DNA from: Chloroflexota bacterium
GTDB lineage: Bacteria; Chloroflexota; UBA5177
Reading direction: 5' to 3'
NCBI GenBank assembly: GCA_025966365.1
Contig: JAICWV010000005.1
Coordinates: 1-56,589, forward strand
Length of the DNA: 56,589 bases
Shown in pieces: positions 2,291-9,463 of the stretch. Both the position numbers and the translations under genes were made by a program. A model generated the notes under the pieces. It was given only the letters and a program-made list of their open reading frames with translations. It searched no databases and was not told the origin of the DNA. Each line of letters starts with the position of its first letter. Positions within the stretch are counted from its first letter, which is position 1.

Positions 2291-2995
2291 TTAGGCCGGA
2301 ACCTGCGCCGCCGTCAGGCGCGAGGCCGCGCCCGGCGCCAGAATCGACGGTGATGCGAGGGCGCACACATCGTTGCACGCCGAGACGCACACGCCGCCGC
2401 TGCCGCTGCAGCCGGTGCAGCCGTTGCCCGTGATACAGAACGTGCCGCTCGGGCAATCCGCGGTGCTCGAGCAGGTGGGTGCCTGGCTGCAATAGGTGTT
2501 GCAACCGCACACGCCTGTGCCCTCGGTGGTGGTGAAGCAGAAGCAATTGGGGTTGGTTTCGCAGTTGCTGAAACCGGTGTAGCAATTGCCGGGGTTGTCA
2601 CAGGTGGACGCGCTAACGCAGGTGCCGCTCAGACAGATCTGATCCGACCCGCAGCACGAAGCGTCACTGTAGCTGCTGCAGAACCCGCTAGTGTTGCGGT
2701 CGCAGCAGATGTCCGACGCGGATACTCCCCCACCTGGACTGTTCGGGCCGCAGGTGTAGCACAGGCCCATGTGATGCGCCCCAGCGGCCGCACACTGGCT
2801 TTGAGCGACCGTATCCCCGCCAAAGACCGCTATACAGAATTGGGCGCAGGCGTTATTGCTGGCCAGCGCCGTACCGGGATCAATGCGGAGAAAGGCGGCT
2901 CCGACCGTCGTCGCCAGCAGTGCCTTGAGCACCTGGCGCCGCGAGGTTTTTCCTCCTATCAGTCGCACGAGATCATCAAAGCGCTGTTCTTCCAT
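2291..2995 (-). CDS. Tat-exported cysteine-rich protein
   Basis: The product has 234 residues from the ATG at 2995. An in-frame ATG at 3049 exists, but the later start gives the standard N-terminus MEEQRFDDLVRLIGG and a normal leader. A twin-arginine motif (TSRRQVLKALL) near residue 17 and a hydrophobic run ending ALAS indicate Tat export. The mature part has 28 cysteines, an even number, in small repeated blocks (CC, CxC, CxxC) like EB or four-disulfide-core modules. It therefore looks like a secreted disulfide-rich protein. Similar N-termini occur on Cys-rich proteins of Thermomicrobia (recalled, not searched). The function is unknown. The neighbouring MauE-thioredoxin gene could supply disulfide exchange. 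Confidence 0.8.
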   Translation of the reverse strand: MEEQRFDDLVRLIGGKTSRRQVLKALLATTVGAAFLRIDPGTALASNNACAQFCIAVFGGDTVAQSQCAAAGAHHMGLCYTCGPNSPGGGVSASDICCDRNTSGFCSSYSDASCCGSDQICLSGTCVSASTCDNPGNCYTGFSNCETNPNCFCFTTTEGTGVCGCNTYCSQAPTCSSTADCPSGTFCITGNGCTGCSGSGGVCVSACNDVCALASPSILAPGAASRLTAAQVPA

Positions 2996-3212
2996 GCCTC
3001 TGTCCTCTCTCTGTGGGTGACGAAATTCAGCAACACGGAGCGGGTTCACCAGTGGCTCGACGCAGTCCGGGTGACCATGTTAGGGCTGCGCGTCAATGCC
3101 TTCCGTGTGCCGCCGACTCCTCGACTGTCACCCGACGGCGCACCAACACCATACAACCATGCGCACACACGGTCAAGACGATTTACACGGTCTCAATGCT
3201 TGCGGCGCCCTC

Positions 3213-5721: not shown

Positions 5722-6192
5722 CTACCCCCCGCTGTCAAGGATCCGTTCCAGTCCCTCGCGTATGCGGTGCCAGTGCGTCCCCTTCCAGTAATAGCGCCCA
5801 CAGCCGGGGCAGTGCAGAAAGCTCTCCTGGGTGCGGAACACATACGGCGGAACGTGCGGCTCTGCTTGCTCGCGTGTTGCCTCGTCCAGCGGGGTGTTGC
5901 ACGCCATGCAGCGGGTGAAGGACGGTTCCGAGTTCAGTCCCAACTCCCGCACCACCTGGGCGAGCTGCTGCCGCCAGTCGTCTCCAACGAGATAGAGCGC
6001 CGGGACCTCGCCGCTGCTGATCAGCCGCCGCTTGAAGATGCCGGTGTCCTTGGTCAGGATTGTCCGCCCCTTCTGCCGCGCGATCTCGACCATCAGACCG
6101 TCCTCGACGGGGTTGATGAAAAGGGTATCGTAGCCGAGCGCACGCAGCGGCCCGACCACCCGGCCCACGTTGTTGTCGACAATGAATTTCAC
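5722..6192 (-). CDS. Mut7-C domain protein (PIN-like RNase with zinc ribbon)
   Basis: The 156-residue protein starts at a GTG at 6192. The N-terminus MKFIVDNNVGRVVGPLRALG and the ILTKDTG segment match the PIN-like Mut7-C family, with acidic residues near positions 6 and 49 expected to bind metal. The second half has CMAC (about 95) and CPGCGRYYWKGTHW (about 130), the family's zinc ribbon. The family is predicted to be a ribonuclease, but little has been shown experimentally. The gene is divergent from the metX leader, with about 75 bases between them. Family assignment is firm; biological role is unknown. Confidence 0.85.
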   Translation of the reverse strand: MKFIVDNNVGRVVGPLRALGYDTLFINPVEDGLMVEIARQKGRTILTKDTGIFKRRLISSGEVPALYLVGDDWRQQLAQVVRELGLNSEPSFTRCMACNTPLDEATREQAEPHVPPYVFRTQESFLHCPGCGRYYWKGTHWHRIREGLERILDSGG

Positions 6193-6231
6193 GGGTTCGT
6201 GTCATCATCCCACGTGGCAGACTGGCGGCGT

Positions 6232-6266
6232 TTGGTCCTCACCCGGCTCGGTGCTAAGGTGTAACC
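6232..6266 (+). promoter_or_regulatory. promoter of the metX leader
   Basis: A -35 TTGGTC (6232-6237), a 17-base spacer and an extended -10 TGCTAAGGT (hexamer 6255-6260) lie exactly six bases before the ATG at 6267. The transcript should begin at or next to that ATG and be read without a ribosome site. Confidence 0.6.
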
Positions 6267-6350
6267 ATGACTGCGCGCTGCATTATGCGGCCCATGCCCT
6301 GTTACCGGATGATTCCCGGTCCGGGATGGCATGGCGTGGGGCGCGCGTAG
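6267..6350 (+). CDS. predicted Met/Cys-rich leader peptide of the metX operon
   Basis: This 27-codon ORF has ATG codons at positions 1, 7, 10 and 15 and Cys codons at 5 and 12, so six of 27 residues contain sulfur. It starts at the predicted transcription start, ends at TAG 6348-6350 and is followed by a strong intrinsic terminator before metX. A hairpin of ACCGG (6304-6308) with CCGGT (6316-6320) surrounds Met codon 15. CCGGTC (6316-6321) can instead pair with GACCGG (6375-6380), the 5' arm of the terminator. This is the layout of an amino-acid attenuator: stalling at Met 7 or 10 would mask the first arm and favour read-through. This is prediction only; I know no described family like it. 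Confidence 0.5.
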   Translation: MTARCIMRPMPCYRMIPGPGWHGVGRA

Positions 6351-6375
6351 CAAAGCCGCAATCAGCCAGAGTCAG

Positions 6376-6398
6376 ACCGGCCGCAGGGCCGGTTTTTT
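6376..6398 (+). terminator. intrinsic terminator inside the metX leader
   Basis: ACCGGCC (6376-6382) pairs with GGCCGGT (6387-6393) over a GCAG loop, followed by six T. It lies 17 bases before the metX start, so it must control metX rather than end an upstream gene. The adjacent Mut7-C gene runs the other way. Confidence 0.8.
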
Positions 6399-6414
6399 GT
6401 TGGGAAGGAACGTG

Positions 6415-7596
6415 ATGGTTCAGGTGGCAGAAGCAGTCGGCTCGGCGGGGGCCGTGCATACGCAGTACGCCGACCTGCCTCGGCCGCTGGCGCTCGACTG
6501 CGGCCGGTACCTCTATCCGGTCCGCATGGCCTATGAGACCTCTGGAACGCTCGCCCCGGCGCGGGACAACATCATCATGGTCTGCCACGCGCTGAGCGGC
6601 GATGCTCACGCCGCGGGCTGGAGCGTCGAGGGGGCGCCGAGCGCGTCTGACGGCTTCGGCGCGGAGGAACGCGGGAGCGATCGCTCCGGACTGGGCTGGT
6701 GGGACAACCTCATCGGCCCGGGAAAGGCGCTCGATACCGACCGCTACTTCGTGATCTGCAGCAACCTCATCGGTAGCTGCCGCGGATCGACCGGTCCCTC
6801 ATCGGTCGACCCGACAACCGGGCGTCCGTATGCGCTGGACTTCCCCGTGGTCACCGTGGCCGACATGGTCCGCGCCCAGCGGCAGCTGCTTGATTTGCTC
6901 GGTATCGAGCGTCTGCTGGCCGTTATCGGGGGCTCGCTCGGCGGGATGCAGGCGCTGGAGTGGAGTGTTTCCTATCCCGACGTGGTCGGGAACTGCATCG
7001 CCACCGCCAGCACCGCGCATCTCGGCGCCCAGGGGGTCGCCTGGAACGCCATCGCTCGCAACGCCATCATGGCCGACCCCGACTGGCAGGGCGGGCATTA
7101 CTACGGAACCGGCCGCTGCCCTGAGGCCGGCATCGGCGTGGCTCGCATGGTCGGCCACGTGACCTATCTCTCCGCCCGGTCGATCGAAGACAAATTCGGC
7201 CGGCGGCTCCAGGATCGGAACAACTACTCCTTCACCCTCGGCCAGCCCGACTTCGCCGTCGAGAGCTACCTGCGCTACCAGGCGCAGAGCTTCGCCCGCC
7301 GCTTTGATGCCAATTCGTACCTCTATATATCGCGGGCCCTCACCTACTTCGACCTGGCCGCTCGTGCCGGCGGCTCGCTGGCGGATGCCGTCAGTCCGGC
7401 TGCTGCTCGTTTCCTGCTGATCTCCTTTACTTCCGACTGGCTCTATCCCACCGCCGATTCGATCCTGCTGGAGGCGGCCCTGCGTGCGGCCGGCAAATCG
7501 GTCGAGCGCCATGAGATTGATGTGCCGTATGGCCACGATTCGTTCCTTCTTGACGCGGAGGATCAGACGCCGATTATCCGCGAGTTCCTCTCATGA
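6415..7596 (+). CDS. metX: homoserine O-acetyltransferase
   Basis: The enzyme acetylates homoserine from acetyl-CoA to feed methionine synthesis by direct sulfhydrylation. The 393-residue alpha/beta hydrolase has its nucleophile Ser at about 174 in GGSLGGMQALEW, Asp near 341 in FTSDWLYPT and His near 374 in YGHDSFLLD, the MetX triad. Some family members use succinyl-CoA; choosing acetyl relies on overall family resemblance and the adjacent metY. The ATG at 6415 follows GGAAGGAA. A leader peptide and terminator precede it, and metY overlaps its end by ATGA. Confidence 0.95.
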   Translation: MVQVAEAVGSAGAVHTQYADLPRPLALDCGRYLYPVRMAYETSGTLAPARDNIIMVCHALSGDAHAAGWSVEGAPSASDGFGAEERGSDRSGLGWWDNLIGPGKALDTDRYFVICSNLIGSCRGSTGPSSVDPTTGRPYALDFPVVTVADMVRAQRQLLDLLGIERLLAVIGGSLGGMQALEWSVSYPDVVGNCIATASTAHLGAQGVAWNAIARNAIMADPDWQGGHYYGTGRCPEAGIGVARMVGHVTYLSARSIEDKFGRRLQDRNNYSFTLGQPDFAVESYLRYQAQSFARRFDANSYLYISRALTYFDLAARAGGSLADAVSPAAARFLLISFTSDWLYPTADSILLEAALRAAGKSVERHEIDVPYGHDSFLLDAEDQTPIIREFLS

Positions 7597-8981
7597 CCGA
7601 GATCAATCCCAACGGCCGGCCCCACGCCTACGGCTTCGACACGCGGGCCGTGCATGCCGGACAGAGGCCCGACCCCTATACCGGCGCGCGTGCGGTTCCC
7701 ATCTTCCAGACCACCAGCTACGTCTTCGAAGACACCGACTCGGCTGCGGCGTACTTCAACCTTCAGGAGTACGGTAACACCTACTCACGCATCATGAACC
7801 CGACCGTGGCCGCCTTTGAGGAACGGATCGGGAATCTGGAGGGAGGCGCGGGCGGCGTGGCCTTTGCCAGCGGATTGGCGGGGCAGGCGGCAGCGCTGTT
7901 CACCATGCTCCAGCCCGGCGATCACGTGGTCGCCTCCAGTGCCCTCTACGGCGGGTCCGTCACGCAGCTCAAGCATCTGCTGCGCAAGCTCTCGGTCGAG
8001 CTGACCTTCGTCGATCCCGACGATCTCTCCCTGTGGGAGGGTGCGATTCGCCCGACCACCAAGGCGCTGTTCGGAGAGACCATCGGGAACCCCGGTGGAA
8101 ACGTGCTCGATGTCGAGCCCATTGCCCGGCTGGGCCACGACCATGGCATCCCCCTGGTCATCGACAACACCTTCGCCACGCCCTACCTCTGCCGTCCCAT
8201 CGAGTGGGGCGCCGACATCGTGATCCACTCCGCCACCAAGTTCCTGGGTGGCCACGGCACCAGCCTGGGAGGCGTGGTGGTCGAGGCCGGCACCTTCGAC
8301 TGGTCCAACGGCCGCTTCCCCGTCGTCGCCGACCCGTCTCCCGCCTATCATGGCCTGGCCTTTCACGAGACCTTCGGTATGTACGGCTATCTCATGAAGC
8401 TGCGCGCCGAGTCACTCCGCGATCTGGGCGGCGCCATGAGCCCTTTCAACGCCTTCCTGCTTCTCCTGGGCGTGGAAACGCTGCCCATCAGGATGGATCG
8501 CCACGTCGCCAACGCCGAGGACATTGCTCGCTTCCTGGTCTGCCACCCCATGGTGGAGCGGGTGCGCTATGCCGGCCTGGAGGACAGTTCCTACTACCCC
8601 CTCAAAGAGAAGTACCTTCCGCGGGGCGCGGGCGCCGTCTTCTCCTTCGATATTCGCGGCGGACGCGCCGCCGGGACCGCGCTGATCGAGCGGCTGCAGC
8701 TGTGGAGTCATCTGGCGAATGTCGGCGACGCCAAGAGCCTCATCATCCACCCCGCCAGCACCACCCACCGCCAGCTCGGCGATGAGGAGCTTCGCGCCGC
8801 CGGAATCACCGCCGGAACCATTCGCCTCTCCGTCGGGCTGGAGACGCTGGACGATCTCATCTGGGATCTGGAGCGAGGATTCCGTGCCGCCCGAGCGGCG
8901 GGGGGTACGAATGAGGAGGCGGCTGCTGCCGCCGGCAGAACGGTGGAGGGCGTCGAAACCGAGCCGCAGGTGCTGCGATGA
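7593..8981 (+). CDS. metY: O-acetylhomoserine aminocarboxypropyltransferase (sulfhydrylase)
   Basis: This PLP enzyme makes homocysteine from O-acetylhomoserine and sulfide. The 462-residue protein has the Cys/Met-metabolism fold: the N-terminal FDTRAVHAGQRPD, VIDNTFATPYLCRPIEWGAD, and the PLP Lys at about 216 in IHSATKFLGGHGTSLGG. The C-terminal HPASTTHRQL and IRLSVGLE are also present. The length fits MetY rather than the shorter cystathionine enzymes. ATGA overlaps with metX before it and the CoA-binding gene after it make one translationally coupled operon. Confidence 0.95.
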   Translation: MTEINPNGRPHAYGFDTRAVHAGQRPDPYTGARAVPIFQTTSYVFEDTDSAAAYFNLQEYGNTYSRIMNPTVAAFEERIGNLEGGAGGVAFASGLAGQAAALFTMLQPGDHVVASSALYGGSVTQLKHLLRKLSVELTFVDPDDLSLWEGAIRPTTKALFGETIGNPGGNVLDVEPIARLGHDHGIPLVIDNTFATPYLCRPIEWGADIVIHSATKFLGGHGTSLGGVVVEAGTFDWSNGRFPVVADPSPAYHGLAFHETFGMYGYLMKLRAESLRDLGGAMSPFNAFLLLLGVETLPIRMDRHVANAEDIARFLVCHPMVERVRYAGLEDSSYYPLKEKYLPRGAGAVFSFDIRGGRAAGTALIERLQLWSHLANVGDAKSLIIHPASTTHRQLGDEELRAAGITAGTIRLSVGLETLDDLIWDLERGFRAARAAGGTNEEAAAAAGRTVEGVETEPQVLR

Positions 8982-9463
8982 CGCAGAGCACAGCGGTCGA
9001 CCTGGCTGCCTACCAGGATGAAACGACTATCCGCGATCTCATAGGGTCGGCGAGGACGGTGGCGATCGTGGGCCTCTCCCCCAACGTCCTCCGACCCAGC
9101 AATTTTGTCGGGTTTTACCTTCAGCGGCATGGCTACCGCATCGTGCCGGTCAATCCGCGGGAGACGGAGATCCTGGGCGAGAAGAGTTATCCTTCTCTGA
9201 CCGATATTCCCTTTCCCGTGGATATCGTGGACGTCTTTCGAACGCCAGAGGCCGTGCCCGGCATCGCCCGCGAGGCCGTTGCGATCGGCGCGAAGGCGCT
9301 CTGGCTGCAATTCGGCGTGATCAGCCCCGAGGGGGCACGCATCGCCGAAGACGGTGGCCTGAAGGTCGTGATGGACCGATGCATGAAGGTGGAGCACGCC
9401 CGGCATGCCGGCCGGATGCACTGGCTTGGCTTTAACACCGGCAATGTAACCGCGCGGCGCTGA
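8978..9463 (+). CDS. CoA-binding domain protein (YccU-like)
   Basis: The 161-residue protein is a single Rossmann-like CoA-binding domain. It shows TVAIVGLSPNVLRPSNFVG (about 29-47), RIVPVNPRE (about 60) and ALWLQFGVISPEGA near 107, ending with a conserved VMDRCMKVEH segment. Such proteins bind CoA or acyl-CoA and are often found next to metX-metY; their role is not established. A link to acetyl-CoA use by MetX is a guess. The start overlaps the metY stop as ATGA. Confidence 0.85.
   Translation: MTQSTAVDLAAYQDETTIRDLIGSARTVAIVGLSPNVLRPSNFVGFYLQRHGYRIVPVNPRETEILGEKSYPSLTDIPFPVDIVDVFRTPEAVPGIAREAVAIGAKALWLQFGVISPEGARIAEDGGLKVVMDRCMKVEHARHAGRMHWLGFNTGNVTARR

Follow-up and report, generated by a model that had tools for sequence, protein, structure and literature searches.

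In the 56,589-nucleotide stretch of Chloroflexota DNA analysed here (the window), the leader of the metX-metY operon is probably a ribosome-mediated transcription attenuator, which senses methionine and cysteine through the codons Met10, Cys12 and Met15 of a short leader ORF (Table 1). This reading draws on the anatomy of the leader, on the conservation in a relative from another genus of the terminator and of the distance between the terminator and a Met-x-Cys codon pair, and on a predicted fold of the window RNA that depends on where a ribosome stalls. Three parts of the mechanism are inferred: that transcription is leaderless, that the ORF is translated, and that the system responds to shortage of Met or Cys.

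To describe the proposed mechanism, consider RNA polymerase starting at or beside the ATG at 6267, where a ribosome would load on the leaderless start. When Met-tRNA and Cys-tRNA are ample, the ribosome would run through the ORF to its stop codon (6348), and transcription would end at the hairpin 6374-6395. When Met-tRNA or Cys-tRNA is short, the ribosome would stall while its A site is at Met10, Cys12 or Met15, and the protector hairpin that is otherwise predicted to span the leader ORF would be broken. The exposed stretch 6317-6330 would then capture the 5' arm of the terminator, and the polymerase would continue into metX-metY. The two enzymes convert acetylhomoserine and sulfide to homocysteine, and a dual signal from Met and Cys suits this chemistry. 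Methionine is an awkward amino acid for a leader peptide, because every protein starts with it, and the attenuator faces a further difficulty: a shortage of Met slows initiation too, and slower initiation would favour the protector hairpin. For this last reason the Cys codon may matter.

Table 1. Features of the metX-metY leader and its surroundings, in window coordinates
Feature	Position	Strand	Basis
Divergent gene with Mut7-C RNase domain	5722-6192	-	PF01927
Promoter: -35 TTGGTC 6232-6237, 17-nt spacer, -10 TAAGGT 6255-6260	6232-6260	+	Read directly
Leader ORF, 27 codons, MTARCIMRPMPCYRMIPGPGWHGVGRA, probably leaderless	6267-6350	+	6 nt after -10 box; Met and Cys content; counterpart in G001
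Protector hairpin across leader ORF, no ribosome present	6268-6364	+	Predicted minimum-energy fold
Conserved candidate control codons Met10 (6294-6296) and Cys12 (6300-6302)	6294-6302	+	-83 and -77 from terminator core in window and G001
Met15, extra candidate control codon	6309-6311	+	Inside predicted stall-sensitive zone (10 kcal/mol)
Antiterminator: 6317-6324 pairs with 6377-6383, upper stem 6327-6374	6317-6383	+	Predicted with Met10 or Cys12 in A site
Intrinsic terminator: hairpin 6374-6395, then T's	6374-6398	+	Terminator prediction; core CCGGCCGCNGGGCCGGTTTTTT
metX, homoserine O-acetyltransferase	6415-7593	+	NF001209, 481.7 bits, above cut-off
metY, O-acetylhomoserine sulfhydrylase	7593-8981	+	TIGR01326, 599.9 bits, above cut-off
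CoA_binding_2 protein, third gene of probable operon	8978-9463	+	PF13380; same order in G001

The comparison within the class covers seven genomes (G000-G006), where G000 is the window genome (3.6 Mb in 253 contigs). Five of the seven carry metX, and four of these five belong to the family of the window. The relative that shares the leader, G001, is a member of another genus.

The original prediction placed a promoter, TTGGTC and TAAGGT at a distance of 17 bases, six bases in front of an ATG, and each of these elements lies where it was said to lie. The promoter is weak in relation to the E. coli consensus, with which 6 of its 12 positions agree, and a promoter scanner gave no flag. Its -10 sequence agrees better with the TANNNT box that lies 5-6 nt ahead of leaderless start codons than with the E. 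coli consensus. When TANNNT is counted in front of the first ATG of long reading frames, the window genome has seven boxes at a distance of 5 nt and seven at 6 nt, against about 2.5 at other distances; the corresponding numbers in G001 are four and four, against about 1.5. In the leaders themselves the gap from TANNNT to the ATG is 6 nt in the window and 5 nt in G001. In Streptomyces this spacing is typical of leaderless genes (PMC8079986), and the same spacing of the -10 box is described for leaderless genes across bacteria generally, with leaderless genes listed in the Chloroflexi too (PMC3160421). Since the spacing is over-represented in both genomes and is typical of leaderless genes, a leaderless start at 6267 is plausible.

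The ORF of 27 codons with four Met and two Cys codons, which had been read from the sequence at the outset, is borne out. Met occupies codons 1, 7, 10 and 15, and Cys occupies codons 5 and 12, which means that three internal Met codons and two separated Cys codons stand directly 5' of metX-metY. A genome-wide control is provided by sequence from the class genomes, about 1.06 Mb in all. In leader statistics of which several were picked after the sequence had been seen, the Met+Cys fraction of the window leader is reached by 1.2%, and that of the G001 leader by 1.9%, of 4323 random frames that start with ATG and span 20-35 codons. Within the same DNA the two leaders are the top two in Met+Cys among 25 leaderless-type ORFs, and they are the only Met/Cys-rich, ATG-started short ORFs of leaderless type before a terminator. 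That 1-2% of random frames are equally rich gives some room to an alternative, where a plain terminator lowers the transcription of metX, the short ORF has no regulatory role and its Met and Cys codons occur by chance in a GC-rich leader. We hold this alternative to be unlikely; the enrichment is found in the window and in G001 alike, and further observations that bear on it are given below.

The metX gene of G001 is 70% identical to that of the window and is followed, in the same order, by metY and the CoA_binding_2 gene, while the genes upstream are different and are read in G001 as rplS, rnhB and yraN. In front of its metX, G001 has TTGGCC-18-TATTGT-5-ATG, the ORF MTWALMCCCLGLDGIVVAEAARSH and a near-identical terminator, and in both genomes the distance from the start of the -35 box to the leader ATG is 35 nt. 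A search for the 22-nt terminator core CCGGCCGCNGGGCCGGTTTTTT that tolerates up to two mismatches finds one copy in G000, one in G001 and none in the five other class genomes. When the two leaders are anchored at their terminators, the best ungapped 14-base match at offsets from -12 to +12 is found at offset 0 (GCCCATGCCCTGTT in relation to GCTCATGTGCTGTT), and a match as good occurs at this offset in 6 of 1000 shuffles. Both leaders have, in frame, a Met codon at -83 and a Cys codon at -77 from the terminator. The start codon has shifted by 12 nt between the two, while the distance from Met-x-Cys to the terminator is unchanged. This conservation concerns one relative, and two genomes in all carry the leader. 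Of 400 Chloroflexota genomes, only G000 and G001 contain the combined pattern of Met-x-Cys and terminator, as expected for a pattern derived from these two.

Because Met10 and Cys12 keep their distance to the terminator in G001, they, together with Met15, are better candidates for the role of control codons than Met7. Of the two stall positions originally suggested, Met7 and Met10, the second is thereby retained and the first made less likely. From the identity of the conserved pair it follows further that Met and Cys together are a more likely signal than Met alone; Met-tRNA, which was first proposed as the only signal, keeps its place as one of two. A variant compatible with this explanation would let the attenuator answer to cysteine, and through it to sulfur supply, with the Met codons as incidental. 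The G001 leader, with Cys codons at positions 7-9 in succession and a single internal Met, points in this direction, as do the Cys codon of the conserved pair and the leaderless poly-Cys ORFs of mycobacteria, described as attenuators that respond to cysteine (Canestrari et al. 2020, as related in PMC9031893 and PMC9094748). The conserved pair, however, contains a Met codon as well, and the window leader has three internal Met codons and just two Cys codons, which are apart; the variant in which cysteine alone is sensed is therefore less probable than a joint signal, and on the whole rather doubtful.

As for the terminator before metX, which had been called strong, its presence is confirmed, while its strength alone is ordinary for the region, where two terminators are found and 2.2 are expected from shuffles. 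What distinguishes it, as judged from sequence comparison, is its conservation in G001. The segments from which two competing pairings had been built, ACCGG at 6304-6308, CCGGTC at 6316-6321 and GACCGG at 6375-6380, are all present. Competing structures are still predicted for the window, and the earlier antiterminator of 6 bp (CCGGTC with GACCGG) has been replaced by the longer register of Table 1, which is the best one predicted.

When the complete window leader is folded to equilibrium, the terminator prevails at almost every stall position. The same is true for the leaders of E. coli, where P(terminator) is near 0.95, and from this follows that equilibrium folding cannot separate true attenuators. 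It was dropped as a test and replaced by the fold that exists before the 3' arm of the terminator is made, with the free-energy cost of freeing the 5' arm at this stage calculated for each position of the ribosome. In the window, this cost is predicted to be about 3 kcal/mol without a ribosome, 7 at Met7, 11 at Met10, 10 at Cys12, 14 at codon 14, 10 at Met15 and 3 at the stop codon, where Met15 falls in the stall-sensitive zone if the RNA is taken to be free from 12 nt beyond the start of the codon in the A site. The predicted strength of the antiterminator peaks at codons 7-15, and falls to 0.6-5 kcal/mol past about codons 15-16. Among 400 dinucleotide shuffles the peak is reached by two and the value at cognate codons by one. 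The positive controls, thrL, leuL, trpL and hisL of E. coli, have a profile like that of the window, with a high cost at cognate codons and a low cost without a ribosome or at the stop codon. For the window RNA, the model thus formulated predicts a stall-dependent antiterminator at the cognate codons.

The RNA of G001 fails in the same test: 336 of 400 shuffles are as good or better at its cognate codons, the peak falls at codons 13-16, which lie beyond its Cys codons, and the value without a ribosome is high. By another measure, the 5' arm of the G001 terminator is occupied to 0.67 for stalls at Cys7-9 and to 0.03 at the stop codon, so that the direction is right but the effect weak. The failure lowers the claim for G001 as a member of one family of attenuators, and leaves the claim for the window. 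It also fits the plain terminator alternative, as does the position of the G001 terminator, which lies 3' of yraN as well and could end the yraN transcript. In the window, however, the nearest upstream gene runs on the minus strand, and the terminator therefore serves no adjacent neighbour on the plus strand; the conserved Met-x-Cys spacing and the stall-dependent profile of the window likewise argue against a plain terminator and for attenuation. The attenuation logic of the original prediction is accordingly upheld in its terminator, its stall-dependent fold in the window, the lack of a match to known riboswitches and the layout in G001, and not in the fold of G001.

The usual means of control for methionine genes are SAM riboswitches, T-boxes or repressors. 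A search with the Rfam SAM-family models, recommended together with the original prediction, gives no riboswitch match in the leader: at the gathering threshold the whole window gives only tRNA and a c-di-GMP-II riboswitch, both away from the leader, and at relaxed thresholds the interval 6150-6520 gives only matches at chance level (best E = 3), with no covariance match to SAM or other riboswitch models or to the T-box model RF00230. The c-di-GMP-II-GCG riboswitch (RF03170, 60.1 bits, 3028-3112, minus strand) precedes a Tat-signal-like, Cys-rich secreted protein with no Pfam match (ORF 2291-3049, minus strand, with its real start probably near 2997).

The leader could in principle be a new metabolite-binding riboswitch, for SAM or methionine, for example, with the ORF as a by-product of structured RNA. 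The RNA 6268-6400 is indeed more stable than shuffles (z-score -3.8), and riboswitches and T-boxes do occur in related genomes, with SAM riboswitches in G003 and G006 (and none found in G000 or G001) and a T-box before metX in another Chloroflexota genome (locus L018, 1037-1369, RF00230, 82.8 bits, E = 1.6e-18, below the gathering score). But Rfam gives no match, and the window and G001 share the codon pair and the terminator, but not the leader fold. The aptamer is usually the best-conserved part of a riboswitch. A riboswitch is, for these reasons, highly improbable, and the attenuator remains the preferred reading. Four further loci (L017, L019, L274 and L277) resemble the T-box leader of L018, as judged by a GGTGGTACC-type motif alone.

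Conservation upstream of metX in relatives was another check put forward at the start, and it has a divided outcome: G001 has the layout, the terminator and Met-x-Cys, and the metX-bearing family members G002 and G003 lack a leader, their metX following closely on other genes. In these two (G003:C87, locus L003, and G002:C295, locus L005) metX-metY lies directly behind unrelated genes, with neither leader nor terminator, and a loss or a gain of the control has therefore taken place inside one family. A gene of the PAPS-reductase family (PF01507) is present in G004-G006 and was not found in G000-G003, hinting at different sulfur sources within the lineage. The upstream regions of metX compared from loci of other phyla and of other Chloroflexota classes have no comparable leader; at least one of these loci has a T-box, and in others metX lies directly behind metY or has a promoter. 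Nor is there a second such attenuator among the leaders of PALP-family, metY/metB, cysH, trpE and leuA-type genes in the class. An MRRLLLC ORF in G001 was dropped as a candidate, as it precedes a glycosyltransferase-like gene and has a weak hairpin. In G006 a leaderless-type ORF, MVSRSYRSSRIRRIRQLLEWWEAWRNERYLTRYIVILIR (locus L154, 2548, reverse strand), occurs 181 nt before a cystathionine gamma-synthase-like gene; it has no internal Met or Cys codons and is probably a different element.

The trp, his, leu and thr attenuators of enterobacteria have, like the window leader, a short ORF rich in codons for the amino acid of the pathway, alternative antiterminator and terminator structures, and the same kind of fold profile with ribosome position. 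The window leader differs from them in its Met and Cys codons, in that it is probably leaderless, and in that its control codons (Met10, Cys12 and Met15) are spread out and do not form a run. SAM riboswitches and T-boxes of met genes serve the same pathway and are present in related Chloroflexota, but neither their sequence nor their structure is matched in the window leader.

A leaderless Met leader peptide had been thought to be new, which is too strong a statement: metL, MSTTSDRTPATEATTTPGARCMCRRMCAF, was proposed in 2021 before metNIQ of Streptomyces lividans TK24 (PMC8079986). Like the window leader, which is itself probably leaderless, it is leaderless, of similar length (29 codons), placed before a methionine-related operon and supplied with Met and Cys codons, in its case clustered as CMCRRMC; unlike the window leader it precedes a transporter operon, has no typical terminator according to its authors and belongs to another phylum (PMC8079986). 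An earlier survey of Actinobacteria found no methionine leader peptides, and predicted leader ORFs with Cys codons, but without terminators, before mycobacterial cys operons (PMC1262725); the report of poly-Cys attenuators cited above came later. These mycobacterial ORFs resemble the leaders of the window and G001, for which a leaderless start is plausible, in being short leaderless ORFs with Cys codons before genes for sulfur amino acids. G001 shares with them the run Cys-Cys-Cys, whereas Cys5 and Cys12 of the window are apart, and the mycobacterial ORFs differ from the window leader in their genes and in having no conserved terminator hairpin (PMC1262725). In the literature searched, methionine leader peptides are nearly absent, and no description of a leader-peptide attenuator in Chloroflexota was found. 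From one lineage to another, the sensing system of a given gene is often exchanged (PMC2965389), and the occurrence of T-boxes, SAM riboswitches and the present leader within Chloroflexota matches this pattern.

The more specific claim, that a leaderless peptide in Chloroflexota senses Met and Cys jointly through Met-x-Cys and brings about true transcription attenuation of a methionine biosynthetic operon, is advanced tentatively, as a real possibility that falls somewhat short of the probable. Control by stalling on Met and Cys codons would follow a logic that is familiar for other amino acids, and hardly for methionine. If the reading is true, sensing of charged tRNA by ribosome stalling would be workable for the sulfur amino acids on a biosynthetic operon, and leader-peptide attenuation would be extended to the Chloroflexota. 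The window genome and G001 would then constitute a pair with divergent leader peptides, in which two control codons and the terminator have nonetheless been retained.
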